The position numbers and the translations under genes are program-made. Under the pieces are notes generated by a model, which was given only the letters and a program-made list of their open reading frames with translations, had not been told where the DNA came from and ran no database searches. Positions 2,701 to 62,414 of a DNA stretch of 64,000 nt are shown here, piece by piece (within the stretch, counting starts at the first letter, position 1; every line of letters starts with the position of its first letter). This DNA comes from Sclerodactyla briareus (taxonomy: Eukaryota; Echinodermata; Holothuroidea; Dendrochirotida; Sclerodactylidae): positions 310,001 to 374,000 of the forward strand of contig JAODTK010005657.1 in assembly GCA_026419785.1 (NCBI GenBank), written 5' to 3'.

Positions 2701-4385
2701 GATCAGTCAAAATGATGAGTTTCATCCTTTTTTTCGCATAACATTGGAACATGTTAATTGGATGCAATCTGCCTTATGGAGTGAATGCATCACATGGAGG
2801 TAACAATTTTCTTAAAAAACCTGTCCATGTCATTGAAGGTCATTAAAGGTCACTTAGGTCAAAAAATCAAAAACTGAGTTTTAGTACTTTGCCCCGTCAT
2901 AGCACTAGGTGTGTCCATCAGAATGCAAAATGCTCCTAGCTGTGGATGTATCACATGTAGAGTAACAATTATCATAAAAACTGTCATATCATTAAAGGTC
3001 ATTCGAAGTCACTTAGGGGTCAAAAACTGTTTTTTGGCTATAATCGGAGAATTGAATATCTGCGAAGGCTGGATGGTTCACCATTGTGATATAATTGTTG
3101 ACCTGCATGTGTGTGACCTCTGACCTGAATTTGACCTCTGTCGGGTGGTCATGTGGTTAAAGGTCGAATCTTGAATAAATGTGCTTATTTAGGGAGTTAC
3201 GGGGCAAAAAAAATAGAAACTGGTTATTTTCGGATATGTGATAGAGCTTTGTGTGCTTTATGGAGGGAAAACAACTCCCGCTTCGATCGGACATTACTTT
3301 AAGTAGTTACAAGGGGTCAAAGTTCAAGTTTATACCTTTTTCGCAATAACATTGAACATGTTAATTGGAATGCAATATGCTTATAGGAGTGAATGCATCA
3401 CATGGAGTGTAACACTTTTCATAAAAAACCGCCATGTCATTGAAGGTCATTAAAGGTCACTTAGGGGTCAAAAACTGATTTTAGTACTTTTCCGGCAATA
3501 GCACTGGGTGTGTCCATCAGAATGCAAAATGCTCCTAGGAGTGGATGTATCACATGGAGATTAACAATTTCATAAAAACTGTTCCTATCAGAAAGGTCAT
3601 TCGAGGTCACTTAGGGGTCAAAAACTGTTTTTTGGCTATAATCGGAGATTGAATATCTGCGAAGGCTGGATGGTTCACCATTGTGATATAATTGTTGACC
3701 TGCATGTGTGTGACCTCTGACTGAATTTGACCTCTGTCGGGTGGTCATGTGGTTAAAGGTCGAATCTTGAATAAATGTGCTTATTTAGGGAGTACGGGCA
3801 AAAAAAATAGAAACTGGTTATTTTCGGATATGTGATAGAGCTTTGTGTGCTTTATGGAGGGAAAACAACTCCCGCTTCGATCGGACCACTTACTTTGGTA
3901 GTTACAAGGGGTCAAAGTTCAAGTTTATACCTTTTTCGCAATAACATTGGACATGTCATTGGAATGCAATATGCTTATAGGAGTGAATGCATCACATGGA
4001 GTGTAACACTTTTCATAAAAACCGCCATGTCATTGAAGGTCATTAAAGGTCACTTAGGGGTCAAAAACTGATTTTAGTACTTTTCCGGCAATAGCACTGG
4101 GTGTGTCCATCAGAATGCAAAATGCTCCTAGGAGTGGATGTATCACATGTAGAGTAACAATCTCCTAAAAAAATGTCATATCATTAAAGGTCATTCGAAG
4201 TCACTTAGGGGTCAAAAACTGTTTTTTGGCTATAATCGGAGAATTGAATATCTGCGAAGGCTGGATGGTTCACCATTGTGATATAATTGTTGACCTGCAT
4301 GTGTGTGACCTCTGACTGAATTTGACCTCTGTCGGGTGGTCATGTGGTTAAAGGTCGAATCTTGAATAAATGTGCTTATTAAGGA
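2700..4385. repeat. Tandem array, ~600-bp unit, about 2.7 copies
   Basis: The anchor ACATTG..CATG..ATTGG, followed by GAATGCATCACATGGAG, appears near 2740, 3350 and 3945, giving a period close to 600 bp. Within a unit, AGGTCA-type motifs lie about 150 bp apart (for example 3444, 3594, 3756, 3908, then 4037). The 600-bp unit is therefore built from four ~150-bp subunits. At 3444-3470 two AGGTCA copies are separated by 4 bp, then a GGGTCA follows after 5 bp. The array ends abruptly near 4385. A second array of the same family lies at 30885-33190. Confidence 0.85.
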
Positions 4386-5002
4386 CGCACCTTGTCGGGG
4401 CTGTAGGGGTGCCGCATACAAATTAACAAGTGCATTAATAGGCCTAATATGCTTCTTATGGACCTAACAACCTGAAACTACCATTAAATGAAGAAGGTTG
4501 TTTAAATATCCTGTCAGAAATTGGAAAAATAATCAGATCAATTCATAAAACAAATTAAAAGCTTGTGTGGGGTTCATTTAATTTAATACTTTGGTGTCCC
4601 CTTTACATATGAAACCCTGTAGTATCCAATTTTATGAGACCGGTGGAGTTGTATATATATTTTCAATGCAAAATAGTACTGTTGATCAGTTAGAAGAAGA
4701 ATCACACAAGAAAGATTCTTGAGTAGAAAATTGATTGAGCAATGGAGAAAAAAATGATTTTGGGCCTGAAAATATCATGTCCATAGTTGGCCCATTCTGA
4801 GTCAATATGAATGACCCATATACCTGTCACGTGTCGCCTAACAAGCTATAATGTATTCTTTCTACGAATATGTCCAGTTTCATGCTCACCCAAATTTCTT
4901 GAATAAGAGATGAGGGGATTATACGTGGCGGTTTACCGCCGACATTTTCAGGTATCTGTGATTTCGTTGCTGAGCCGTGCAGTACAACCAATTTCTCATC
5001 GT
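4386..5002. other. No gene seen
   Basis: AT-rich sequence between the ~600-bp array and the hairpin. No exon, RNA gene or element boundary recognised. Confidence 0.35.
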
Positions 5003-14261: not shown

Positions 14262-14697
14262 CATAAGGCCTTTAGTCATTAGGCCTTTGTCATAGGCCGT
14301 TATTTATAACGTGCAATTTTCGAAAAAAGGGGTCCGTATTCATAATGACCAAAAAGGTCCGATATAATAATAAAAATAGGGGTCTTTGTCATAAGGACGA
14401 TATTCCTATGACCAAAAAGGTCCGTTTCTTAATTATCAAAAGGTGTCTGTTTTCATAACAGAGCACAAGGTCCATCAGACGATATAATAATAGTGAAAAA
14501 AGGTCCGTATTAATAATGCGAAAAGGGTCCGTAATCATAATTGCAAAAGAGGTCTGATTGCATAATAGCAAAAGAGGTCCGTATCATAATCGCCAAAAAT
14601 GTCCGTTATTCATAATAGCAAAAAGGTCCGTTTTAATTATAAGAGCAAAAGGGGTCCGTATCATAATCGCGAAAAAGGTCCGTTATCCAATGTTTTT
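14262..14697. repeat. Left ~25-bp tandem array of the foldback element
   Basis: About 16 diverged units contain the core AGGTCCGT, an A-rich lead and a CATAAT(A/C)GC tail. Before it is a short transition series with TCATTAGGCCTTTGTCATAGG. Unit length varies from about 22 to 28 bp. Confidence 0.8.
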
Positions 14698-15714: not shown

Positions 15715-15935
15715 AGTAAAGAGTACCATATTGTGTTGGAGTCATGTCAACTATACTAGAAGGTAAGCAGACGTCAATGTCTGAAAACTTTCTAAGTTTG
15801 TCACCCCGATATGTGCAACCAAAATGTTGAAGATGGCTCATACTTGGCAGGTAGGTTGCCCATGTAGTGTAGATATTCTATGTTCTCGGAATCACCTCCA
15901 AGGTCACGTAAGGTCAACAGCGATCAAAGTCTAAA
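15715..15935 (+). repeat. Diverged single copy of the 37.9-40.2 kb array unit
   Basis: The order GCTCATACTTGG, TTG.CC, then TCAC..AAGGTCA and CAAAGTCTAAA matches one unit of the ~310-bp array at 37880-40170. It shows that unit dispersed outside its main array. Confidence 0.5.
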
Positions 15936-17539
15936 CTTGAAATACGACAAACCTCCTTTAACACGAAAAGATGTAGAAGAACCATATTTAGAATGTAGGC
16001 AGGTAGGACTATCGTCTGGTGCCATTGTTTTGGGGAGTGAGTTTAAGAGTTGCATTTACTGGGCACAAATCCTAAAACCAAATTCCTCTCATAGCCTTAG
16101 AACTAAGTGATTTTTACATCAATATCTGTTCTAATTGCATGCAACTGTCACACGCTAGGTTCGACTTCATGCATTACCCGGTGACAATTCAAGCGAAACG
16201 TCACACCGGTTTGGGCCTCGTGGCGTGTCAGAAAACATTTGGGGTTCGAACCCCAGATCACCGGAAATTATGGCAAACACGGAACAACTTTTGTTTCAGT
16301 GTCTTTTACATCAATCATTTTTCAAAATTGCGTGGACAACCGTCACGCGCGAGGTTGACTCATCGCATTTCCGTCAATATCTAAGAAGAGCGCCACCACA
16401 GGTTCGCGCGATAGCGTCCACTGAAATTTTTTGGGTTATGATACACCCTAAGTACTAGAAATATCATTCCTGGGCACAAAATGGAACACCCGATCTTTTA
16501 CTTTTTTTTGGCCTTGGAAGCAAGATTTCTCTTAGTTCTTACATACATATAATTTTGGAATATTTAATTTGTTATATTTTCAAAGAAGATCGTTGTACTT
16601 TCGTCATCTCTTTTCTGTCGAAATTTCGTTATATTTCTCCAAATTGTTTAAGTTCCCTACCCGGATTCAGAATGTGGGTGGGAGGCAATCGATTGCTGCA
16701 AATGAAATGAATATGAAAATTTCAGCGAGTTGCTATTTTAGCTCTATATATTATTCATTCAAGTCAGATATACTGTATGCAAGTAGCTTCAACGCTTGCA
16801 ATTTGCACATAATATCGTGTTTGTGGAAATGTGTTGAAAACTTCTCTTGCCAGCCGTCGGATAATCACAGCTTACCAATTGCATGCAGAATGGCGGCATC
16901 ATACAACTTTTAAACATCTTGAAAAATGAACAACAGACCTTTCTGCCTATGTGAACGGTTGAGAAAACATACTTCACGCACCTTATTAAATTTCATTATG
17001 CTCTTCAGTTCTGTCGAAATAATATTTAATTCCAGGGGGCCAATCCTCAGAATAACCAATGGAAGGCGAGAGGGCTCGCGTGGGTCTTAGCCTGCATCCC
17101 GGTGGTGTGGAGGGGGGATCCGTTCATAACCGTAACGAGTTCAAGGGACAAATTGAATATATAGCTTTCTTTTCGATTCAGAGAATACATTTTCAATCTA
17201 AATTATGACGATGCGCCCAAATGGGCACGACGCCACTGGCAAAGGTTCGCATGTGGGTACAGGAATCCCATTGTTCTGTGGTCATATCCGGAGTCACCTG
17301 GAGGGCTGTGAACAGCAGTCGATGTCTTGACACCTTGTAAAACAGATAACTATTCAACAAAAAGAACAACCGTGCAACAAAGATGGTAGGCCTATAGGTA
17401 GGTTCTTACTTGGCAGTGGTACCATATGAAAAACAGATAACCCCTATTGCTTCCGCATGAGGCCACTGTCCAGGGGTCAAAAGTATGAACGTCTGATGCA
17501 CGTGATTAAATCCCAGATACAGTGAAAAGCGTCAATTAG

Positions 17540-18020: not shown

Positions 18021-18754
18021 TGAAACGAAAAATTGGAGAAGGAATGTGGATATAGGGAATAGAGGTTAGCTTGAGCCTCAAGCACGGGGGAAATGAATAT
18101 ATATATGGCTTTCCTTAAACGAGTCCGCAAAAAAGGCGAATTTGCAAAGGATATGCACGTCGCCCGGTTTACCCGCCTGCAATGTCGAGTTTATTAAAAG
18201 GTGGTAAAACTAATGAATGAAAACAAGTGGAGGGTACATGGTTTGTATGTAGTTTGGCCATAAAGAGTGCAGATTTCCTATTGTTCTTGAGTATGTCGTC
18301 ATCAATTATAGGCTATTTATTAGTACAACATTCAAAACTCAAACGGGATTGAGGACGGCTTCCCTCCACTTAGACGCAACCTCCAAGAGGTACCCACCAT
18401 TCAGACATTCTGTAGCGGCCATGGGTCATTTCACTCACGTTCCCATCAATGTTGGCAAGCACCAAGCCCGATTACCAGGGAGGCGCTCGCGTGTGCCAAT
18501 TGCCCCTATCCCTAGCTAGATATACCTGAACTTCGTCCTGCCTCGTAGGAAAGCTTCAGCTAATGACGAATATGGGAAGTGGCGTACTGACGGAGCTTAT
18601 AGTCACCACTCAAGTGGGGTGTGGGGGTGGGAAGGGGGTATATCCCGTGAAGTTTGTCCCGGCTTATGGAGAATTAATTTTCACGACACAAAAGGATAGG
18701 AATAGTAATACATGAATACAATCAATTATAACATACCACATCGAGACAAAGAAA

Positions 18755-18900: not shown

Positions 18901-19094
18901 TAATGCAATTAATATATGGTTTTCCCGTTCTCTTCTCCTTTCTTTTCAGCTTCTCCCCCGCCCCCCTCCCCCCCCCCCCCTGCTCGTTAACTTCCACCTC
19001 GTCACTCTGAATATATATTATCTTGTCGTTTGAACATTGTTGAGGAGGGGGAAGGGGTCCCCGATCCCTGGCCAGATCCCGACGGTGTTTTGTT

Positions 19095-19512
19095 TTCCTA
19101 TTATGAATACGGACCATTTTTTCCTATTAATGAATAACTGACCTTTTTTCCTATTATGAATATCGACCCTTTTCCCTATTATGGAATAACGGTACCTTTT
19201 TCCTATTCTGAATTCGGAAACCTTTTTTCCATTCTGAATATCGGACTTTCTCTCATTATGAATATAACGGACCCTTTTTCTTATTTGAAATAACGGACCT
19301 TTTTTCCTATTATGAATAACGACCTTTTCACTATTAATGAATAACGGACCGTTTTCCTATTATGAATAATCGACCTTCCTTTGTGATTATGAATATCGGA
19401 CCTTATGAATAAAGAACCTTTCGGCATATGAATAACGGGCCTACGAACAAAAGGCATTGTGAATAAAAGGCATTATGACCCAACAAGGACCTTACGAATA
19501 AAAAACCCTTAT
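19095..19512. repeat. Right ~25-bp tandem array of the foldback element
   Basis: About 15 diverged units of the form TTTTTCCTATTATGAATAAC plus GGACC. This is the reverse complement of the left array at 14262-14697. It ends in ACGAATAAA..CTTATGAACACCGGGC, which mirrors the start of the left array. Confidence 0.8.
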
Positions 19513-23224: not shown

Positions 23225-25130
23225 ATATACTCTATAAGCCAGAGTGGGTTACAAATTGCCTTTTGGCCCCACAAACAGTCATTCGTGATGAATGTCGACC
23301 AACTTGGACACATTTGTTTATTGACCATGGGACATTTGCACTTTGTGCAAGTCAAGGTCAAAGGTCATAAAGGGCAGTGTAGGCCATAAGTGTGAAATTT
23401 CAAAATCTCTCCTACAAATTAGGCCACTCGGCCACAGGCTGAGTTCGTCATAATGAGGTCTATTCTAACAGCCGTACCTTCGGGGTGTTAGGAATTTTTG
23501 GTTCAAGGCACCACTGGGGCCCCGAGGGCCATTTAGGAAATTTCACACAATAGTACTGAAATGCTATCTTCTCCCACAAGATTCAAATTATGTTCCCTCA
23601 AAGTTTGAGTGATAGGGCTTGGGTTAGAGGGCCATAGGGGGTCTTCAGGAATGTTTGGGCGTAACGCCCAGTTTGGGGACCCTTGCGGCCAATCTTATAG
23701 GAAACACGCAAAATATTGTATTCCCTACAAATTTTGTTGCACAGTTTGGCTGATGTTCAGTCATATGGTGTCTAACAGCCTACCTTGGGGGGCTAGGTGT
23801 TCAAGGATTTGTGGTCCAGGTCCCATTGGGTCGAGGGCCATTTTATGAAATTTCACACAATCGTACTTGAAATGCATCTCCTCCCACAAGATTCAATTGT
23901 GTTCCTCAAAGTTGCATGTAGTGGTCATTGGGTAGAGGGCCATTACGGGGGTGTTCAGGAAGTTTGGGCTTAACGCCCAGTTTTGTTTTGGCGCCATTGG
24001 GCCCATTAATGAAACACCGCAAAAATTCCCTTGAACTCCTACAAATGTTGTTGCACAGTGCTGATGTCAGTCATATTGTGGTCTAAAGACCTACATTTGG
24101 GGTGTTCAGGGAAGTTGGTCCAAGGTCCCACTTTGGTTCGAGGGTCCATTTTATGGAAATTTCACACAATGTACTTGAAATTGCATCTCCTCCCACCAGA
24201 TTTCATTGATGTTCTTCAAAGTTACATCTATGGCTCCGTGGGTAGAGACCAGAGGGGGTGTTCGGGAGTTTGGGCTCAAGACCCAGTTTGCGGCCCTTGG
24301 CCCATTATAGCAACACAACAAAATCTTGTATCTCCTACAAATTTTGTTGCACAGTACTGAAGGTTCAGTCATAATGATGGTCTAACAGCCAGTATTCGGG
24401 GTGTTCAGGGAAAATTTTGGTCCAGGTCCCACTTGGGACCGAGGGTCCTTTTTATGAAATATTTCAGCACAATAGTGACGTGAAAATGCCATTCTGCCTC
24501 CCACAAAGTTCCAATTGATGTTCTTCAAAGTTACATGTAATGGTCTTTGGGTAGACGTGGCCATAGGGGTTTGTTATGGAATTTTTGGCCCAAGGCCCAG
24601 TTTTGGGCCTTGGGCCCATTATTGAATACCGCAAAAATATTGGTATCTACTACAAATTTTGTTGCACAGTGCGGAGTGCTTTAGTCATAATGGTGGTCCA
24701 ATGACATATCTTCATGGTGCCCAGAATTTAGGGTCCCAAGCCCAGGGTGGGCATAGGCCCATCCTGTGGAATTAGCAAAATGCTTCCACAAAATTTGATG
24801 CACAGTGCTAAATTGGGTCATAATGAGGTCTAACAGCTGTACCTTTGGGGTGTTCATGATTATTTGGTCCAAGTCCTCTTGGCCTGTGGGGCCAATTTTC
24901 AAAATTTACCAAATTACTGAATGCATCTCTCCCACAAGCTTCATTGATTGTCTTCAAACTTACTGTAACGGTCCTCGGGTAAGAGGGCAATTGGAGGTGT
25001 TGGGAATTGGAACCTGAGGGCAACATATGGAATACTGACAAATTGGTATCTCCAACAAATTCTGTCGCAAATTGCTGATGTTCAGTCATAATGATGTGTG
25101 GTCATAATAGCTGTACTGCCCAGGATTAAG
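23225..25130 (+). repeat. Tandem array, ~310-bp dimeric unit
   Basis: The marker AAATTTCACACAA recurs near 23540, 23850 and 24160, with diverged forms near 24460 and 24770, giving a period of 303-311 bp. Each unit has two related halves. One contains CTACAAATTTTGTTGCACAG and CAGTCATA..GGTCTAACAGCC. The other contains CTCCCACAAG..TTCA and TTCAAAGTT. The array includes AGGTCA-A-AGGTCA at 23355-23367. Open frames here are products of the repeat, not genes. Confidence 0.85.
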
Positions 25131-27932: not shown

Positions 27933-30900
27933 GTTGATTGTCACCTCCAACTACAACATAGTGTTCATGACTCTGTCATGCATAACAGCCGTTACTGTGC
28001 ATACATTCTACAAGAAGATCTGGCCAGACATGAAAGGTTTGAGAGTTGTAATGTGGTCGCCCATTTTCTGGGTTCCTTCCAAAAACCTCTTCCCAATCTA
28101 ACTCTCCTAAAATATAATATGTCATGGTCATATTACTCTATCATTACTGGCATGCTTAGCATATTGAGATGTTCTTAGGGACAGGCAGCTCATAGTGAGT
28201 GTATCTGGTATTATATCTCTGATGAGCTGTACCCATTTGTTTACTGTAGTGCTATCGGTGTTACTACGGTCTGTAAAGTTGCGTAAACCTCTGGTGGGTC
28301 CAAGAATTTTTGTGGGTCCCTGAGGGCAAAAAGTCTGCAGTGGGAACCATGAAAAAAAAGGGCCCGCATCAGCGACATACTTTATTACTAACCGGCATAC
28401 TCAGCTTATTGAGATCACCAGAACTATGCTGGCAGCCAGCACTTAGTGACTGTACCCAGCAGCATCTCTGATGGGTTGTACCTATTTGTGTGGTGCTCTA
28501 TACCAGTGTACTCGTCAGGCTTGTCTGAACCTCTAGGGAGTCTGAGAATGTTTTGCGGGTCTGTGAGGGCAAAAGGGTCTGCCGGGGGCCATGAAAAAAA
28601 TGAAGGGCCCGCAACAGCTCAAGGGGTTTTGTGAAAACGAACAAGGTACATATAATAGTGGTTGTTCAGATCAGACAATATCTCTATTTGTATACCAAGT
28701 AACCGTTACAGTTTGGTAGAAAGCGCTGGGAGATCGTGGTTCAAATCCCAGTCGGGTCATACATAAGACTTGGTACCTGTTGCCTCGCTGGTCGCCTCTC
28801 ATCAAAGGATTGGAGCAGAGGCGCCAACAAGAGGTAGGCATTTGCAAGCTGCATTCTGCGTGATTAACTCCCACCCCACTTTAAGGTACCACCAGAGAGG
28901 CATTGCCTGATTCTGTGTACCTGGTGAAGGATTCGCACCTGACAAAAATGTGCAGTATGATTTATCCCGATCTGCACCTTTGCCGCCTCCGCCGGCCTCA
29001 GAATAGGTTACAATCCTCATCCCTCTCGGCAACCAGTTATCATAAAAACTATAAAGGATATTAAGTCGATAAATGTCAAACCGTGTATGAAACTAAAAAA
29101 TAGTTTGCCTGCATGCATGGCAGTGAAGCAGTTCCTTAGACCCCTGGGAATCAATGTCTTAAAGACTTATTAGTTACTGTACATGGACATGTAGTTATTC
29201 AGTGTATCATGACTGATGATATAAATGGGGTGTTCAGAAATTTGAGGTCAGTGGTCATCTTCTATAGGTCAATTTTCGCTATTTTGTCAAGCGGCTTCTA
29301 CTCTGACTACAGAATAGATTGGATGTTCATGGAAGTTGGTTAGTAATGTAATGTAATTTCATCGAACAATACGACATATGAGGCATTAATGAATTTTGGG
29401 GTTTGGGGATTTTGGCAATTCTATTCAAATTGTCTAGTGGCCTGAACTCTTCAAAATGAATTTGGTGATGAAAGTTGGCCAGTATTATCATTGACCTATG
29501 GTACATACAGTATGGGGTGTTCATGAGATCGAGGTCAAATGTCATCTGGAGGTCAATACCACCATTTTGTTTGGTTGTGTGGCTTCTATTCCTTCAGAAT
29601 AGATTGGATGATCATGAAAGTCGGTGTGTAGTATCATTGACCAGTAGTTTCATATGGGATGTTCATGGATTGGAGGTCAAAGGTCACTTTTGGGTCACTT
29701 TTGTTTTGGCAAGTTTGTTTCAAATGGTCGAGCGGATGATCATTAGATTGGATTGTATTACCACTGACCACTGTTACATTATAGTGGTTCAGGAATTTGA
29801 CATCATAGATCGTGTAGAGGTCATTTTTTTTGGGCATTTTTTCCCCAACTATCAACAACTTCTACCATGAGATCGGTCCAGTCCTTTTTATTGGCAGCAG
29901 TAAAGAAGTATTCAGAATTAGAGGTCAAAGGTCCTCTAGGGGTCAATTTCGGGAGTCTGTCTGATATAACTATAATTGCTGCATTTTTATTTGCATCGCT
30001 CATGCGGACTCGTTGCTCAGATGCTCAGACCGGATGATATTATTAAACAAAGTGAGCAAAATAGAACTTCATATACTATCAACAATCCCTGCTATGCATT
30101 GATAGGTGTGCCAATGTCACTCTTGTTTTCTATGGTTCCATTTGTGCTCATCATTTTACCCTCCTGTGTTTTATTTTCTAATTTACAGTTGAGCCCAAAT
30201 ACCTCTGACGAGTAGTCCAGTAATCTTTGCCTTCTTTCTTTCTCATGCAATTCAGTTCCAGTGTTCCTATCGACCCCCCCCCCCCCCCCACCCCCCCCTA
30301 TAATCCTGTAGGTAGACTCCGTTAGGTCGAAATTGCCTCAGCGTGATTGTCCTGTCATAATGCGCCTTATAATGAAGCCTCTTGGATCCTTTTTGTCTCG
30401 CTGAAACTTTGTTCAAGGAGAGCCATATTGGTCACTTTGTTGTGTGTGTGTCCTCTGTCTGTCTGTCTGTCTTTCTTTCTGTCCGTCCTGTCTGTCCGTA
30501 TGTGCGGTAGATTATCTCCCTGAACCGTGGAGCCATCATGCTGGGACCTTCTTGTGGAGGTGCGCTTTGAAGAGTTGCCGATGTGAATCCACTTTTCGGC
30601 CCAAAAGACCATCCTCATTTGCATAAAGTTTGCATCTTTAATGAAAATTGGTCCGGAAGCTTGTGTACAAGATATCTCTTGATCGGTAGATGCAGTGGTG
30701 CTGCCAGTTCAGGGTATATAACAATATGAAGAGTACACGAATTGAATAGATCCTGGCAATGATATATGCTATTAAGTAGTCTAATTTGCATAAGTCTGCT
30801 ATATTTTGAGTTTTGTTGGATTTTTGCCGAATTGATTGAGCTGGTTTATCTATAGTCCCAATGAATTTAACAGTAGGGATGCGGTGCCCCATAGGTCCTT

Positions 30901-33900
30901 CAATGTTACAATGGCTGTCATTCAAGGTCACTTAAGGGGTCCCAAAAACTGTTTCCCCTTCCCTGGCCGTAATCGGAGATATGAAATGTCTGTGAAGGCT
31001 GGCATGTTCACCATTGGACTATAATTGTTGACACTGCATGTGGTGTGACCTCTGACCTCAATTTGACCTCTCTGTCGGGGTGTGGTCAGGGTTAAAGGTT
31101 GCGTCTTGAATAAATGTGCTTATTTAGGAGGTACAGGCACAACAAATAGAAACTGGTTAATTTTTGGATATGTGATTGACCTTCGTGTGCTTTATAAAGG
31201 AGACCAACTCCCGCTTTCGGATCGGACGCATACTTTGGTAGTTACAAGGGGTCAAAGTTTATTTAATAGCTTTTTTCCAATAACATTGGGCGTGTTCCTT
31301 GGATGCATATGCTTTTCTAGGAGTGGACTCATCACATGGAGAGTAACATTTTATAAAACCGCCATGCATTGAGTTCATCAAAGGTCACTTAGGGGTCAAA
31401 AACTGAATTTATAACTTTTTGGCATAGCACTGGGCATGTTTCATCAGATGCAAAATGCTTCCTAGGAGGAATGTATCCCATGGAGAGTTTACAATTTTCA
31501 TAAAAACGTGCCCTTGTTCATTTAAAGGTCATTCAAGGTCACTTAAGGGTCAAAAAACTGTTTCCTCTGGCCAGAATCAGAGAATTGAATATTTGTGAAG
31601 GCTGGAAGGTTCACTATTTGTCATATAATTGTTGACCAGCATGCGTGTGACCTCTGCCCTCAATTTGACCTCTGGTCATGTGGTTAAAGGTGAGTCGTGC
31701 ATAAGTTGTGCTTATTTAGGGGGTTACGGGCAAAAAACATAGAAACTGGTTTATTTTTTGGATAATGTGATAGACCTTTGTGGTGGCTTCCATGAGGAAA
31801 CCAACTCCCGCTTCTGACACCATACTTTTGGGTAGTTACAAGGGTTCAAGTTTAATTTTATAGCTTTTTAGCAATAACATTGGCCGTGCATTGGAATGCG
31901 GATTGGCTTCTAGGAGTGGATGCTCACATGAAGAGTAACAATTTTCCATAAAAACTCGTCATTCATTGAAATGTCATCAAAGGTCCGTAGGGGGTAAAAA
32001 ACTGATTATAGTCTTATTTGGGCAATAGCACTGGGCAATGTTCATCAGATGCAAATGCTCCCTAGGAGTGGATGTATCACATGGAGAGTTCCAATTTCAT
32101 AATAGCTGCCATGTCATTAAAGGTCATTCAAGGTCACTAGGGTCAAAAAACGTTTCTTCTGGCCATAATCGGCAAATTGAATATCTGTGAAGGGCTGGGA
32201 AGTTCACCTTGTGATATAATTGTTGACCTGCATGAGAGTGACCTCTGACCTCATTGACCTCTGTCGGGTGGTATTTTGGTTAAAGGTTGAGTCTTGAATA
32301 AATGTGCTTATTTAAGGGAGTTTACGGGCCAAAAAAAAAAAACTGGGTTATTTTTTGGAGATTTATAGACCTTTGTGTGCTTCATGGAGAAACCAACTCC
32401 CGCTTCGATCGGACGCATACTTTCTGGTAGTTACAAGAGGTCAAAGTTAATTTAATAGCTTTTTTTCGATAACATTAAACGTTTTCATTGTGAATCTCAT
32501 GAACTTGGTGGAAGATGGGTACACCTTTTGATCCGATAAATTTAACACCTTAATAAGGTCACTTAAGGTCATTTATGTGAATATTTGCATAACTTACACA
32601 ATTTTTCGAATTTTGTTAAATGGCGAGTAACAATTGGAATGAATGCAGCCTAGGGTGCTCGTATAGATTTGTCATGGTAATTTTTTGGGTTCAGTAATCA
32701 AACAACATCTATATACAAGGCAAAGGTCAAGTTTTAAGAAAATGTGCTTATTTATCAGTACTACACGGCCAAGAAATAAAACTGTCATTTTTGGATATTT
32801 ATAGTTCTATATCTGCTACATAGACGAAACCAACTCCCCCGCTTCACTCTGACACCTGGTCTTACAGTTACAAGGGGGAAAGGCTGATTTTAATACCTTT
32901 TGGGCGATAGCATAGGGGGTGTGTGTACCTGATGACATAATCCTTTTGGGGGCTTTGGTGCATCACATTGAGGCAAGCATTTTTCCATAAAACCGTCATG
33001 TCATCAAAGGTCATTCCAGGTCACGAAACTGCCAATATTAACATTTTTCTGGCAATCATTTTATGACTGTGTGTGTTATAGAACTGAAATTTCGGACATG
33101 CTGCATATGATTAAAGGGTAAAACATTTTTTCATGACACCGTTCATGTCATCAAAGGTCATTCAGGTCACTTATGGACCAAAAACTTGTCAAATAATTAA
33201 CTTTACTTCAAACAAGCTCCAGAGACTGTACGCTACCTTTTAAGATGTTTAGTTTGGGGCAAACCCTAAGCTGACCAGCAGAATTCTGAATCGCTAGTAC
33301 TAAGCATGCTATCAAAACAAAATGTTTTATATTTACTCATTTCAACCCCTCGGGCATGTTATTTTCATCCTCCCACTAGTCTTCCCATCTGTACAGACAG
33401 AGATTTCATAAATTGTCAAAACCTGCCTTTTTACGTTGAGGTTCACATCAGCTGTCAGAACCCTTCTGGCCCCCTTACAATGTGTACAAGTGTAAAACAC
33501 TCAGTCATTTGTTACTACTGCAAGCACCTATTCAGAATGAATGGTCAGGTGTCACCTGCAGTAGTATGTGGTGGATGGGGGGGAGGGGAGGTAACTCCCT
33601 TGTATCACTACATTGTCATAGCTTCAGCCAGTAGGGGCCGGCATGACTCCTAAGTAGATGGCTTATTCCCTCTAGAAGGGGATGTGAGAGTGGGGGTGGG
33701 TTGTGAACTCCCTAGGGTTGATGGAAGTAGTAGAGTATAAAGGGAATACTCTTTGATGAATATAGGAATAAACTTTAGTAGATTTAGGGTTTCATTTACA
33801 ATTGTGTGGACCAATACAGTAATATCAAGGGGGGAAACATAAACTCAGTAAGTATGAGTTTATAAGGGAGGGGTAAGTGTGTTGTTGTCAATGATGGCAA

Positions 33901-37666: not shown

Positions 37667-37837
37667 ATAAAAAGTAATGTAGAATGTGAAAATCTTGTAC
37701 CAAACAAACTAATAGATGAAATTCAAATAAAACCTACAAATCATTCCTAAAAATTAAGAATATCTCATTCATTTCTAAGTAATACCTTTTTGATTCCTTG
37801 ACAAAGGAGTCAGAGGAATTTCTATGCAGTCACGTCG

Positions 37838-37862
37838 TTGTGTGTGTGTGTGTGTGTGTGTA
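37838..37862. repeat. GT microsatellite
   Basis: About 11 GT dinucleotides. Confidence 0.9.
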
Positions 37863-37879
37863 TGTGTTCGTGGTGTGAC

Positions 37880-40170
37880 CCGCCCAGCTTTGTAAACACG
37901 ATAACTTGAATCTGGTCTGGGTAGGTCAGGCTCATACTTGGTAGGTGTGTTCCCCATTATGAGTAATGATCCTATGTTTTTGGGGTCAGGCCGAGGTCAT
38001 CTGAGGTCACCAGCGGTCAAAGTCTGAAACCTATAAACACGATAAGTTCCCAGAATGGTTTGGTCTGATCAAGTTGGAATTGGGTGTATAGCTTTTTCCT
38101 ATGGTGAGTACAGGAAACCTATTGTTTTTTGGTTTCAGGGCGGGAGTGATTTTGGTTCGAAAATAGAAATTTTTGAAATTTCGATTTTTGGTCAATTTTG
38201 GCTTTAAACACGATAACTCGACCCCACCCTGATGGATAAGCTAATACTTGGTAGGGGTGTTCCCATGATGAGTACATGAACCCATTTTTTTGGGTCAAGG
38301 TCAGAGGTTCATCTGAGGTCACCAGAGGTCAATTCTGAAAACCATGTCCAACAACGATAGTCCAGAAGGTTGGTCTGATCAGTTGAAATTATGTGTATAT
38401 CTTTCTTATGGGGAGTACAGGACCCTATTGTTTTTGGTTCATGTCGGGGTGATTTTGGTCGACAATAGAAAATTTGCGAAAATTCGATCTTTTGGCAAAT
38501 TTTTGCTTATAAACAAAATAACTCGACCCCAACCCGTATGGATTGAGCTCATACTTGGTTATTGTGGTTCCCCAGATGAGTACAATGAACCCTATTGTTT
38601 TTGGGTCAGGTCGAGGTCAACTTGAGGTCACCAGAGGTCAAAGCCTGAAACCTTGTAAACACACGATAAGTCCAGAATGGTTGGTCGATCAAGTTGAATT
38701 AGGTGTATAGCTTCTTATGGGGAGTAACAGGACCCTATTTTTTTTGGTTCAGGTCGGGGTGAATTTTTGGCGAAAATAGAAAATTTGCGAAAATTCGATA
38801 TTTTGGCCAATTTCGGCTTGTCAACACGATAACTCACCCACCCGGATGGATGAAGCTCCATACTTGGTATGTTTGTTCCATGATGAGTACATTAACCCTA
38901 TTGGTTTTTGGGTCATGTTCCGAGGTCACCGATAGGTCCAAAGTCTGAAAACCTTGTAAAACAAAACACATAAGTCAGATGGTTGTGTCTGATCAAGTTG
39001 AAATTAGATGAAGTCTTTCTTTTGGGGAGTACAGGACCCTATCGATTTTGGTTTCAGGGGGTCGGGAGGGAATTTTGGTCGAAATAGAAATTTCTGAAAA
39101 TTCGAATTTTTGGCCAATTTTGGCTTGTTAAACCAACACATAACTCGACCCCAGCTGGTGGATGAAGCTCATACTTGGTAATGTGTTGGTTCCCCATGAT
39201 GAGTACATGAACCCTATGTTTGGGGTCAGGTCCGAGGTCATCTGAGGTCACCAGAGGTAGAAGTCTGAAAACCTGTAAACACGATAAGTCCAAATGTTGG
39301 CTTATCAAGTTGAAATCATGGTGTATAGCTTTCTTATGGGGAGACAGGAACGGTCCTCTTGTTTCTAGTTCAGGTCGGGGTGAATTTTTGGTCGAAAATA
39401 GACAATTTGTGAAAATTTGATATTTTGGCCAATTTTGGCTGTAACATGATAACATCTCTACCCACCCGGATGGATGAAGCTCATACTTGTATGTGTGTTC
39501 CCCTGATGAGTACATGAACCCTATTGGTTTTTGGGGTCAGTCAGTAGGTCATCTGACGGTCACCAGAGGTCAAATCTGTAAACCTTGTCACACACGATCA
39601 TCCAGAATGGTTGGTCTTCAGGTGAAATGAGAAGGTGTAAACTTTTCCTTATGGAGTACAGGAACCCTATTGTTTTGGTTTCAGGTAGGAGTGAATTTTG
39701 ATCGAAAATAGAAAATTTTGAAATTTGATTTTGATCAAGCCGATTTTGGCTTGTAAACCTGATAACTTGACCCCACCTGGTGTAGAATCTCCTACTTGGT
39801 ATGTTTTGTTCCCCATGATGAGTAGATGAACCACCTGTTGTTTTGGGGTCAGGTCAGAGGTCATCTGAGGTCACCAGAGGTCACAGTCTGAAAACCTTTA
39901 AACCACGATAAGTCCAGACCGGTTGGTCTGATCAGGTTGAAATTAGGTGTGGAGCATTCTTATGGTGAGTAGGAGTACTGAGGCCCTATTGTTTTTGTAA
40001 AGGGGCGGGGTGAATGAGGCTTCATACTTGGTTTGTGTATTCCCCATGATAGTACAATGAACCCTATTGGTTTGGGGGTCAGGTCGGAGGGTCATTTGAG
40101 GTTACCAATTTCAAAGTCTGAAAACCTGAAATTTAGTGTGTAGCTTTCTTTAACCACGCGTACAGGAACC
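37880..40170 (+). repeat. Tandem array, ~310-bp dimeric unit, ~7.5 copies
   Basis: The marker TACTTGGTA followed by TG.GTTCCCCATGATGAGTA appears near 37935, 38251, 38554, 38862, 39173, 39485, 39793 and 40026, a period of 303-316 bp before a short last unit. Each unit has a second half with TTCTTATGGGGAGTACAGG. Halves share the pattern GAGTACA..AACCCTATTG and GGTCAGGTC. The first half carries AGGTCA repeats, best preserved at 39851-39883 (spacers 1, 4 and 4). Open frames inside are repeat translations. Confidence 0.9.
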
Positions 40171-43100
40171 TATTAGTTGGTTTGGTACAGATAGGAAATT
40201 TGTCAGTTATGTGTTACTTGCCTATAATGAGCTGGTACTATCTCCGTTTGTCTGGCTATGAGTTGACAGAACCGTCAAGGAATCACTAAGAAGCTTTGTC
40301 TTTCTTCTGGTTTAGTTTTTCGTTATCATGGTGCAAAAGCAGCATTATACTGTGCTGGGCCATGAGCGGCCTATGCATCGTTCCCCCGTGATGTCAAGAT
40401 TCCTCAATTTCTCAAAGTAAACGAAATATCTCAACAGGCCACATGCTAGAACCATCCAATTTGGGGTGTGGGCTTTGAAATGTTCCTCTTTTCCCCTGTT
40501 CTAGTTTAAAGCCAAATCTGTTACATGCGCATTGGCCTTTGGGATAGATGGGCTGTTCCTGTTTGCTGGTATACCCTCCTCTACTATACTCGCATACGTC
40601 CGAAACGTGGTTCGTTTGACAAATCCCCGAATCGGAGGATTCTCATAGAGTTCAATGCGATGTACCTTTAGGCATTGAAACCTTATATTAGCTCTGGTCA
40701 CTTATACTGCATCGTTGTCATTAGGCTCCACACATGGGCCCCACTCCATAGTGTGGTGATTTTTCAGATTGACCGCAAAGCAAACGAAATCCTACTGGCG
40801 TTTAGTTAAGGTTATAAGGAAGGTCACCAGAACTGAGTGCCCTCGTGAACGACCCTTAAACGCACAATAGTTCCTTGCAACAAGTTCAGACTGGTCTCTC
40901 AGGCCTTATTAAACACTCTTAGAACGAACACATCTGCAGAGAGGCTATTCCATTCTTTAATAACTCTTTGCAATAAAATGAACACGTCCCGATGTCTAAT
41001 ATCTGGTAACAATACCACAAAGCTCAGACAATGGCCTCTATTAGTGGTAAGTGGTAACGTTAAAATTCAAAAAGATCAGTCAGAAGAAAGAACGGTCATC
41101 AAAGCCATGGACAATTTTGAAACCTGATCAAATTACCCTAAATTTCGTCTTTAGCTCCATCGAAGTCATACCAAGATTTTCAATATTTCCTCATATAGCA
41201 AACTCATCAGACAGTGATCAGTTCTGTCGCCCACATTTGAAAACGATCTCATTAGTCAGCCTGCATTCACTAAATAAGCGATTCCATCACTTGCATGGCA
41301 TACTCCAGGTGAGGTCTTACCAACTGCTTTGAAGAGCCTGACAACAATGTCTTTGTCACGGAACTGAAATTACGTTTATCAAGCCGAGGATCCAATGCCG
41401 TTCATAGCAGCTTGTTTTGGTAAAATGAGGATTAGTCAATCTTAAAGGCATAATTTTCCTTTCGCCGTTTTGTAAACACTGTAAATTCCGTTTATAAATT
41501 TTCTAATTATAAATTTTCTGTTTCCGTTTTTTCGCGTTTTTTGAACAAGAGCACTTTTTCTAACTGCATACTTGCAGCACACTGTATGGGGCATCTATTT
41601 CCACCATGTTTTCTTTCATACTCCTTATTTTTTCATGTAAAAGATTCCCACCCCCCCCCCCAAAAAAAAAAAAAAAATTACTTCCGTGTAATCAAATGAA
41701 TGGTCATAGTTCCGTTTTTCTGAAAAGAATTCAGACACGTAACGTATGGCAAACAGCCCATGCATGTGACCACTGTTGTGCTGGTAGTACTAGTACGCAG
41801 GAGCAAAAAAAAACTGTACAACTCGCATTCTTCCATACTAGTAAGCTCAGCCCCCGCCGAACCGGATCGTCTACTCGCTAGACGCATTACGAGGCTGAGT
41901 AAGCCCTAATGTACTGAGTATTTTAGCAAGAAACCGAAGCAAAGGCACGAATCTGAAATTAAGTCGTAAAATACACTAAATCAATGCTAAACCTTAATGT
42001 ATGATTGTTTCTCCACCAATTGTCTAATTATCACGTTCGTTCATCATAGACTTGTAGGACAACGCGAGTTATATTGCAGTATCGCTGATCGACGATCGTA
42101 AATAAATCCCCTCCTTAATCACATAGTCAATGGAAAATTCCAATTGAGTTAAGTGTGTTTGGAAGGATCGTTGCCGTCGGGGGTTGTGGGGGCCACAAAC
42201 AAAAAAAACAGAGTGGGCGGTCGTCCCTAGACTTGGTATCGTTGTGTTTGCGTGCTGTGGAATTGGAGCACATTGCAATTGGATGACCCGTGTCCAATCA
42301 GGGCTATGGTTTAAGTAGTGCACAGCATTGAGCGATGGCTAAAGCAGCAACATACAGAGCTTTGCTGTTACGTTAAGGTGAAGCTGCGATGTCTGCATCG
42401 GCTGGGTATTCAGCAAATAAAGCAAATACACAACTCGCAACACACGTTGGTCATAGTTTTATATCATTTTTAAACCACTTTTTTCACATGAAATGTAGAT
42501 TTAGAAAAGTGTTTCATCAAGAGTGACATTGCCGTTGATTACTTGATCTTTTAAGCGAAGTCTAGTTTTACAGGCAAGCGTGCGAACTTCTGTACATTGA
42601 TGTAAATATTAAAGTTACATCGCGACCGAATTGAATGGAGCATGCATGTCTTCGAAGACCCGATCATGTTGTGAAGTAACGTCTGCCGGCGTAACAAACG
42701 GGGTATGCTTCAACGCAGTGTTCTTGGCTCGGATTTCAAGTGAAGTGTTCTGATCGCGGTAGGTTGTCACAATATGTCTTTATTTCGCTTACTTATCCGA
42801 GTAAGGAGGAGTTTTCCCTTGAAAATAAAATCTTCTTTACTTTTTGGTGATCACGTCCAATTCATTTTGGACTTTAGGCTTATTCTTGGGACAGATTCTC
42901 GAAATTGTTAGCCTATACACCTAACTTCTTTCGAAAACCTCAACCCTGCCGGTGAGGGGGGAGGGGTAGTTACGCCGTAGCAATTCTAGTTTGACTCATG
43001 TGCGGCATCCCCCGCTCCCAACATTTTTTTAAATCGCCAATTGTCGCTTTGGATATCTCACACAGTCACCTCTCTAGAAGAGGGTCCTGTCCCCCCCTCC

Positions 43101-44590: not shown

Positions 44591-45418
44591 AACTTCGCAT
44601 AATGCGATTCCTCTAAATGATTCATTGCAAGATATATGAATATTGTCTCTAGTGACCATAACCTAACACTAAGAACAATATGGGTCATCCTATCCATTGA
44701 TTTGAGCTTAATAGGTCCTTGTGTCCTTGACATCTCGTGCTGACAAGTTTTCCCTCTTGCCACTGAATGACCTCGAATTACTGCAAAAACAATGGTGTTC
44801 ATCCTCAACATAGGTGGCCATCCCATACCCATGTGCGACGAGGATGTCACACACACACCTACACACGCCCCGCTCGATTGCATAGATTCCTCAGTCTCTG
44901 GCAAGATCAGAAATAGGTGTGTTTCCATTCACTGGGTTGAGAAGTTTATGAGCAGGTACCATAGCCCCAAACATCTGTTTTGCTACTGCCTGATAATAGT
45001 TGGGGAGTCACATCAAATTCCAGTGAGGTAAGACGTCCTTCCTCACTTGGGAGGATACAGCCTGGAAGGGACATTCGGAGGGAAGAGGTGGTTCTGTGGT
45101 ATTCTCTTACTTCTGGCAACTCGTCGATGGGCGTGATTGGGGTCTGTGTATCAACTTTGCGGCATACTTTCTGCATGTTTTTATCAATTCATAGCAGCAG
45201 TGGTGAGGTTGAGAAGCAGCTACTTTTAGCAATGCCCACGATTAGAAGGACTTCTGCGTAATATATATTCATGAAAGAAGCGCCTGTCAAGACGAACATA
45301 GCATGTGAGACACTCGAGACAAGTGGAGTTGGTTGGCAACAGTGGAAGAGGTATGAGCAGATACCTACTTGTTTGTCCTAGTTGTGTTATTTTGGTTGGA
45401 TAAGAGTACGCCACGCAG

Positions 45419-45849
45419 ATGAAACACAGCACAGATGAAACACCAGTTGCTAGCAGTAGTGGGAAGAAAAAACTTGATGGGAAATCAGTCATGGACTCCT
45501 TGCTCCCGGCAAATTCCCTGACAGGGGACCAAAAAATCATTTCTATGAGCATATCCAGAATGATGGAATGTACCAATAATTTAGCAAGTCAAAGTTTTCA
45601 AATTCGTCTCCTGCTCGCTCATCCACAGAACGCTTAAGGGCTTCAGCAAGATGACAATGATGGCGATGGTTATTCAGCTCCGACAAGAATTAGCTGACTT
45701 CATCCCATCTCCTGGTCCTGAGCGCGATGCAGCTTCAATCATGCCACTGCCCCATATTGAGACAAACCCAGGGTCCAGTTCTAGGGCCAGTCCCATGTAT
45801 GAATTGGTCGAGGCTGATGACAAAGGGAAGCCTCCCTTAGAAACTCACT
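45419..45849 (+). CDS. Possible coding fragment with frameshift
   Basis: Two neighbouring frames read like protein. The first, from an ATG at 45419, includes DETPVASSSGKKKLDGKSVM then DSLLPANSLTGDQKI and stops at 45637. The second, from about 45651 to 45851, includes LRQELADFIPSPGPERDAAS and YELVEADDKGKPP. They may be one exon split by an indel, or unrelated chance frames. I do not recognise a domain. Neither end has an obvious splice site. Confidence 0.22.
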
Positions 45850-52344: not shown

Positions 52345-52539
52345 CTGTAAGCAAGGTGCCTTGTTTAAATTGAGCTTTATAGTAGTCTATTCCCCACAAA
52401 TGACCCCCCAGTCTACACCCAAAAATGCCAGGGTTCATGCAAGATTTCAAAATGATGGGACCAGGCATATACAGTATAATTGGACTCAATCATGTTAACA
52501 AACTTTCAGACTGACCTCTCTTGATCTAACCCCAATGTG

Positions 52540-52795
52540 ATAGGGATCATGTACTCATCATGAGGAACACACATAGGGGTATGAGCTTTCAGTCACCCAG
52601 GCGGGAGGGGGGTCAACTTGCCAGGTTTAACAAGGCTGAAATTGGCCAGAATATTGATTTTCCACAAAAGTCCCAATCTTCATCAATGACGATCCCTGAT
52701 CTACATTAAAACCAGTAGAGGGTCTTTCACTCCCCATAAGGAAGCTACACACCAAATTCAGCTTGGACCAGGCATTCTGGGCTTATCCTGTCAAG
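52540..52795 (-). repeat. Inverted single copy of the 37.9-40.2 kb array unit
   Basis: GTACTCATCATGAGGAACAC, ..TATGAGCTT.., CTCCCCATAAGGAAGCTACA and CACCAAATTCA are reverse complements of conserved words in the ~310-bp unit at 37880-40170. The order is that of one unit read backwards. Confidence 0.75.
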
Positions 52796-60685: not shown

Positions 60686-62414
60686 CAGTGCTGGAGTCCG
60701 AGTCCTCTCAATCCGAGTCCGAGTCACAGTGTCCGAGTCCGAGTCCGAGTCATCGGCTTCCGAGTCCGAGTCACAGTGTCCGAGTCCGAGTCCGAGTCAT
60801 CGGCTTCCGAGTCCGAGTCACAGTGTCCGAGTCCGAGTCACAGTGTCCGAGTCCGATTCCTCGAGTCCTTATGCAAATTTGACCTGTACTAGTTTACAAA
60901 TTTAGGGCAAAACTTAACAACCGCTGGATTGTTTGCTATATAACCGAGCAATGTTATGAATGCACCCAGATGCAGCGGCTACTGCGATCAATAATACACT
61001 GACATAACGAGAACTTTTAATAGAGTACTGGGCTGGTCTACCTCCTGCTTGGGCGTCGACAGGTGGGCGACGGGGGGACATGCCCCCCTCCCCAACTTTT
61101 TTACTATGCTCCCATTGACTTTAACATTTTCACACAGTAATTTTTTTTAATGTGGCCATATCCCCCCCCCCCCCACCCTTTCGAGAGGGTGGTGCCGGTG
61201 ACGCTCATGAACTCATGAAGTGCCCGACTAATCTAGGTCCAATTATTTTACTCTGTACTGAGTATGTAACAGGTCAATAATGACTATACTCTAGGTGCAT
61301 GAGTTGTCTTGAGGCCAGGACTCCCTGGAGCGTACAGGCATATTCCAATATGAAATATGAAATATTAATTTGAAAATTAAATTTGTTAAATATTGTTGCG
61401 CAATGCCTCGCATTGAAGAGCATAGAGAATGAAATTTGCTCTCTTCCAAATTCATCTACTTTCTTGTTATCTGTTTATTTGGGAGCCTTTCTTCATCATT
61501 GAACCATTTCCTCCCCTCCCTGTGAATCACTCGTTTAATTCACATACATATCTATGAATAAACTGAGGCTGTCGCATATCGATCAAGAGATATCGAAAGC
61601 AAGTGTGCGCACAAACGTTCGTGGGGGCAAAAGCAATTTTGCAACCCAAAGAATTCCAGAGAATTACAACAAAGCCGCCTGCTCCGTCACGTCCCGCCAT
61701 AATCTATCAACATTGATTTACCGTGTAGGCAGAAAAGTAAATGCCTAATTGTCAGTTACAATAACATAATATGAGAAGCACTTTGTTAAGAGAGTATCGT
61801 AACTTCCATTGGCACAAGTTGAGGTGAAAGCTAGGCTATAAATCTTCCCGAAAACAGTATTTCAAGGTTGTGTTTCAACGTTCGTGTTATGTATCATTAT
61901 AAACAGCAATAATGCTTGTAAAGTCCGGATAGTAGTATCACATTCATATTTGATTCGTTTAAAAAATGATGGATATTTTGTCCATGGCTGATTTTAAATG
62001 CACACAGTTTTCTTCTAACTAGCCAACTTTTCGGCACACAGTAATAGTTTTTTCGTTTGCAATCAATTGTATCTGTTATTCGTAATTGATAATGTCCCGT
62101 ACAACTGCCATCAAAAAGTGTGAAATATTTAATTTTCCCCACCTGATTTAGATCAATCGGACGTCGGAAGTACGTGGAACAGTTTGGGCTACTTTGCAGA
62201 GCTTCGTTCGTATTATTTTGATTGTCTTGTAACGTCGTAAAATCAAGTTCCTGTATTTGTTAAAAAATAGAGGACTCGACCGGGCCAGGACTCGGACCGA
62301 GCCCCTGAGTCCTTTGTCCGTCGATTCCTGAACTCCGAGTCCCAGTCCCTGAAAAAAAAGACTCGAGACCGGGCTCGAGACCGGAGAACCGGACCTCGAG
62401 TCCGTCCAGCACTG
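60686..62414. mobile_element. Candidate hAT-like element with GAGTCC-rich ends
   Basis: The left end starts CAGTGCTGGAGTCCGAGTCC. The right end, read in reverse, starts CAGTGCTGGACGGACTCGAG. Both continue into GAGTCC/GAGTC-rich sequence, so the ends match as inverted repeats in order and content. CAGTG termini fit the hAT superfamily. The flanking 8-mers (ATTTTGTA left, TTTATTAA right) do not match. The alternative is two independent fragments facing each other. The interior shows no transposase. It lies in the proposed first RPL37A intron. Confidence 0.55.
60696..60868. repeat. GAGTCC minisatellite
   Basis: Hexamer GTCCGA repeated in blocks, with longer units containing CACAGTGTCCGAGTCC and CATCGGCTTCCGAGTCC, each present more than once. 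All plus-strand frames are open through it because the unit length is a multiple of three, so these frames are artefacts. Confidence 0.9.

Follow-up and report, generated by a model that had tools for sequence, protein, structure and literature searches.

The AGGTCA-rich tandem array at 37893-40196 of the window, which is the whole 64-kb stretch of Sclerodactyla briareus DNA that was analysed, forms the core of a mobile element, a point beyond what the first-pass annotation of this DNA had seen. The best explanation, to which we give a probability of about 0.8, is that the element is a HINE-like, gene-less rolling-circle element and that its AGGTCA run is transposon cargo copied by descent, like the DR2 sites of Alu. 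The features of the window copy, all on the + strand, were as follows.

37787..40312, + strand: whole HINE-like element (putative non-autonomous Helentron), ~2.5 kb with its ends; head and tail are common to other copies and the ends were placed
37787..37791, + strand: T-run of the 5′ end; 11 of the 14 elements whose two ends could be placed have a T-run of at least 4
37792..37802, + strand: 5′ subterminal inverted repeat GATTCCTTGAC
37809..37820, + strand: complementary arm, predicted to pair with the 5′ subterminal repeat as a hairpin (folding against shuffles)
37839..37867, + strand: TG microsatellite, present in other copies too
37893..40196, + strand: central tandem array of 8 unit matches that ends in a shortened unit (unit profile)
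39851..39883, + strand: AGGTCA cluster DR1-DR4-DR4 of one unit (exact motif positions)
40274..40284, + strand: 3′ subterminal inverted repeat GTCAAGGAATC, the exact reverse complement of the 5′ repeat
40288..40302, + strand: position of the 3′ palindrome, which is decayed in this copy of the element (folding against shuffles)
40305..40312, + strand: 3′ end TTCTGGTT, from end placement across copies

The head of the element was ordered as T-run, GATTCCTTGAC, complementary arm and TG repeats, and the tail as GTCAAGGAATC, palindrome and TTCTGGTT. In the window copy, the two subterminal inverted repeats (37792 and 40274) were complementary at 11 of 11 bases. The hairpin in the head of this copy was equalled in folding by 5 of 200 shuffles, and that of the common head form by none of 200. 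The common form of the 3′ palindrome had a 5-bp stem that was matched by 21 of 200 shuffles, and the window copy was matched by 113 of 200. The placed 3′ end was followed by Ts in 8 of the 14 elements. The extent of the array was 37930-39971 by TRF and 37893-40196 by the unit profile. Of the features that mark a HINE, the subterminal inverted repeats (11-15 bp in HINEs), the complementary arm, T-rich insertion with terminal Ts, and a microsatellite with central tandem repeats were found. With its class assigned on this structure, 37787-40312 probably works like a HINE.

The layout and distances of the element agreed with those of published HINEs in the excerpted text of PMC4067079 and PMC7492417. 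Like the Pacific oyster element Cg_HINE, it has a left end with a 5′ subterminal inverted repeat, a complementary arm and a microsatellite, then central tandem repeats, and a right end with a 3′ subterminal inverted repeat and a candidate palindrome, and it likewise has a T-rich target and is dispersed in both orientations (PMC7492417, in part). In contrast to Cg_HINE, for which the same excerpt gives monomers of mostly 140-180 bp and microsatellite motifs of mostly 4 nt, the sea cucumber element has a 311-bp dimer unit and a TG microsatellite. Its anatomy also resembled the HINE or DINE-1 elements of mites, mosquitoes and flies, but those animals yielded autonomous partners that share the element ends, which were not found here (PMC4067079, in part). 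The element gives one animal genome a HINE-like family whose central unit is a dimer. Similar AGGTCA-rich monomers occur in fish and marine invertebrates. No AGGTCA runs in HINE arrays appeared among the literature matches listed, which included the Alu and HINE papers, judged by title and the start of the abstract, and a literature search for three repeat words returned one unrelated primer paper. The excerpted text of PMC7492417 held no noticed report of AGGTCA runs in Cg_HINE.

The genome assembly that was scanned comprised 319.5 Mb in 3171 contigs. Element heads were found at 379 places and tails at 540 (at most 1 mismatch), with 0 for the reversed controls, and a 26-mer of the unit had 2,947 places (at most 2 mismatches), again with 0 for the controls. 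The unit profile matched 200 times in the window plus 22 loci. The arrays recurred with common ends, and many finished with an identically shortened unit. Of the 33 arrays in which the unit matched two or more times, 25 had a head, 19 a tail and 15 both, counted with fuzzy words and with some arrays cut at the edge of the locus. The flanking sequence outside the element differed between copies, which lay on both strands and in many contigs. At L012, the tail of one element directly abutted the head of the next, the sole case in the 34 loci scanned, and the head and tail coordinates gave a second head-to-tail pair at L014; tandem rolling-circle insertion could leave such pairs.

When the flanks of 14 elements were joined and used as queries for empty sites, which would reveal insertion without target-site duplication, one (L022) gave a usable match, to uninterrupted copies of a 595-bp repeat at 71-77% identity, where papers use 80-90%. 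The matches for L012 and L014 were their own tandem neighbours, and the joined flanks of the remaining elements gave no empty site in the sampled sequence. L016 was left out of this test, as its 3′ end was unclear; by eye, it resembles a second insertion into a 595-bp array. At L051, one of 12 loci picked by the element head, the head word was present and the unit was absent.

The unit is 311 bp long and is a dimer of two related halves (145 + 165 nt), whose homology scored 96 against a best score of 46 in 500 shuffles. The half-site run is confined to the first half, with AGGTCA at unit positions 97, 104, 114 and 124; at the corresponding place, the second half retains AGGTC, and the remainder of the run is gone. 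Indels between array units were scored at 13%. Part of these is probably assembly error, because a conserved NR5A2-like receptor exon (C2478) was split between two frames. For the same two reasons, assembly error may be part of the cause of the degraded AGGTCA copies.

The first-pass annotation had described four AGGTCA half-sites with spacers of 1, 4 and 4 bp, and these were found exactly where it had placed them (39851, 39858, 39868 and 39878, + strand). Its statement that the hexamer recurs in the other units also held, as 37880-40170 contained 18 exact AGGTCA, every one on the + strand; the neighbouring pairs among them, with spacings taken by hand, were six DR4, one DR1 and one DR5. The whole window held 122 AGGTCA on both strands compared to 35.4 +/- 6.2 after shuffling (0 of 100 shuffles reached 122), many of them in repeat families other than the 37893-40196 array. 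The majority 311-bp unit had four compared to a shuffled mean of 0.24, and 1 of 5000 shuffles reached four. Outside the listed repeat stretches, 49 were left in 54,230 bases compared to 29.4 +/- 5.1 (largest shuffled count 44), so the repeat listing does not catch everything. Searches of the window against Rfam, at the gathering score, and for tRNAs gave no matches.

Direct pairs of the form AGGTCAN{0,10}AGGTCA were found at 45,487 places genome-wide (22,914 + 22,573) compared to 1,140 for the reversed pattern, an excess of ~40-fold, and the DR4 pattern AGGTCANNNNAGGTCA at 18,337 compared to 240 for its control. Inverted AGGTCA pairs were not enriched (369 places compared to 323 for the control). 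The first 100 direct pairs listed comprised 31 DR4, 16 DR1, 12 DR0, 12 DR5 and 29 others. By the unit shuffles and the genome-wide reversed-pattern controls, the DR1 and DR4 spacings are real and far above chance; the earlier observation was sound, and its extent is larger than first thought.

These spacings would also be expected if the arrays were platforms at which receptors bind DR1 and DR4 sites that are under selection and act as an enhancer, a sink or a chromatin switch. We regard this as unlikely, even though the excess is confined to direct pairs, DR4 is the commonest spacing among those listed and receptor genes are present. A zf-C4 search of the genome gave seven matches, and four of the exon pieces were compared with solved structures, where the best matches were NR6A1, NR5A2 and PPAR-delta and the fourth was unclear; judged from these matches, the genome encodes nuclear-receptor DNA-binding exons and probably belongs to a bilaterian animal. 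The conservation of the half-sites, which the first-pass annotation had itself named as the test, did not support the platforms. In 12 loci that were picked by the element head, blind to AGGTCA, 11 held unit matches, and 34 of the 38 matches were aligned after 4 short ones were dropped, using a profile derived from an AGGTCA-biased first sample. Mean column identity was 0.883 for the half-sites, 0.858 for the other columns of the same blocks and 0.808 for the 9 spacer columns, an excess over neighbouring positions that was matched by 26 of 110 circular shifts of the site mask and is thus not significant. The four half-site windows stood at the 93rd, 66th, 85th and 53rd percentile. A first sample, in which these windows stood at the 90th-97th percentile (134 of 200 unit matches used), was rejected for bias, because its loci had been chosen for a 26-mer that contains an exact AGGTCA.

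The same slight excess was seen genome-wide. After subtraction of the controls, the ratio of DR4 pairs with one mismatch to exact pairs (27,669 to 18,097) gave ~11% divergence per base, compared to ~14% for a 6+4+6 comparator elsewhere in the unit (5,708 to 2,998), a rough comparison in that the DR4 set mixes families and the arithmetic was by hand. The slight excess in both tests, together with the recurrence of the module in a second family that otherwise aligns at chance level, would be compatible with a weak constraint on the half-sites or with one between families. The platforms are further opposed by the loss of the run from the second half of the unit and by a short element (L045) and an array (23464-24698) that exist without AGGTCA. 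The suggestion that an array could act as a sink or switchable chromatin domain is unsupported. Incidental binding by AGGTCA-reading receptors at the candidate sites is possible and biochemically plausible.

A different reading is that the AGGTCA direct repeats are a working module of several diverged satellite-like or HINE-like families, with germ-line or embryonic receptors (NR6A1-like, NR5A2-like) occupying tens of thousands of putative DR0, DR1 and DR4 sites and aiding opening or copying in the germ line. Large parts of the genome would then be tied to receptor levels, but we consider this improbable. The 311-bp family can hardly supply all direct pairs, since its 26-mer has 2,947 places against 45,487 pairs. 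The spacers of the first 100 DR4 sites listed were TCTG (33), CCAG (17), TTCA (10) and 26 other kinds; TCTG and CCAG are spacers of the 311-bp family, and the 595-bp repeats of the window contain TTCA. Nine TRF arrays in the sampled sequence lay outside the 311-bp family, and the two of the 595-bp type exceeded shuffles for AGGTCA, whereas the other seven had none. The kinds of spacer and the AGGTCA in the 595-bp arrays thus point to a module common to more than one family. Beyond the two families, 13 direct pairs were left in 260,801 bases.

The alignment of the two families scored 45 compared to 28.8 +/- 4.7 after shuffling (best of 200 shuffles 48), and with the GGTCA blocks masked it fell to chance level (25 compared to 26.6 +/- 3.6). 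Common descent is the simplest reading for the shared module. We abandoned the idea that hexamers are kept longer than spacers between families; by eye, 17 of 18 hexamer positions agreed and ~5 of 8 spacer positions, plus a gap. A seed from upstream gave 14 matches compared to 5 for the reversed seed. Four of the 14 had AGGTCA 40-70 nt downstream (6 sites, and none near the control seeds), and 6 further AGGTCA lay 50-80 nt upstream; these numbers hint at a repeat superfamily and are too small to lean on. In the window, the 595-bp family occupies 2730-4390 and 30916-33187; its unit bears two sets of AGGTCA runs, one per strand, and the family also occurs in L016, L011, L022 and L045. Neither the HINE-like head nor the HINE-like tail was seen in the 595-bp arrays of the window. 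At 29225-29960, diverged monomers of ~150 nt contain GGTCA words, among them DR1 pairs (AGGTCAAAGGTCA), and appear to be remnants of a broader superfamily.

Iterons in rolling-circle plasmids and viruses are read by Rep, and by analogy the 10-bp-spaced run might be read by the Rep protein of the transposon itself. Half-sites placed roughly one helical turn apart, on a single strand and within an element of the rolling-circle type, would suit such a role. However, the run sits in the internal array and not at the ends, the ~360-nt element at L045, another head-picked locus, has a head and a tail around an interior that lacks AGGTCA, and such runs are present too in the 595-bp family, where HINE-like ends were unseen within the window. 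We therefore regard this as very unlikely. The search for Helitron_like_N gave three matches, at C2413 and C2926 only, and the match at C2413 was split between frames. An autonomous partner with the ends of the HINE-like element was not found, with these two Rep-bearing contigs seen, and no element head lay within 3.25 kb upstream of the Rep match in C2413. In the same contig (L041), with Rep matches at ~1501-2000, a head word stands at 3159, ~1.2 kb downstream on the same strand, which may reflect nesting or chance.

An ordinary, immobile satellite would also be tandem and non-coding, but this is contradicted by dispersed copies with common ends and differing flanks on both strands and many contigs, and we give it little credence. 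An assembly artefact, for which the indel noise of the assembly might speak, is the least credible of all in view of 2,947 places for the 26-mer, none for its controls, and distinct flanks.

For the HINE-like element, we propose that two related monomers of ~150 bp fused into the 311-bp unit and that one of them ended in the 10-bp-spaced AGGTCA run, which the array would then multiply, probably growing by unequal exchange or replication slippage. The Rep/helicase of a Helentron would mobilise the element in trans, and transposition would scatter it with the AGGTCA runs carried along. The half-sites would be passengers kept by common descent and not by selection for receptor binding.

A mobile repeat that spreads receptor-type direct repeats over a genome is known from primate Alu. 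In the human genome, 90% of the DR2 sites (n = 108,582) lie in Alu, and binding of RAR at several elements was shown by ChIP (PMC1785376, in part). Unlike Alu, a SINE in which DR2 prevails, the sea cucumber element carries candidate DR4 and DR1 sites in tandem arrays. In Drosophila miranda, a DINE-1-like element supplies binding sites for the male-specific-lethal complex, with a function reported (PMC4067079, in part); it is likewise a HINE-type carrier of sites for a chromatin-binding complex, which are putative in our case, but complex and motif are different. In this one genome, receptor-type direct repeats are in 40-fold excess and are carried by repeats. If receptors bind, the arrays would parallel the Alu DR2 sites in another kind of transposon and would test how mobile DNA rewires receptor networks. 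If they do not, scans for response-element motifs in such genomes would mostly return transposon repeats.

Several other repeats were seen in the window. A tandem array of a 309-bp unit at 23464-24698 (4 copies) looks related, with a consensus that lacks AGGTCA. The 311-bp unit has short, decayed matches that lack head and tail words at 15723-15950, 17246-17349, 44653-44830 and 52385-52795. Arrays of ~24-26-bp units at 14483-14687 and 19093-19404 match each other on opposite strands, and TCCGAG/GAGTCC word repeats at 60694-60866 are perhaps a candidate coding stretch of the Ser/Glu or Asp/Ser type. Scans for viral contigs gave one match (L056), with 0 AGGTCA on the + strand and 2 on the other, plus 50 contigs. 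On contig C2424 (L036-L039), 13 of the 14 HSP70 exon matches listed lie over ~100 kb, some with stops, an arrangement suggestive of a local cluster of genes that includes disrupted copies or errors in the assembly.
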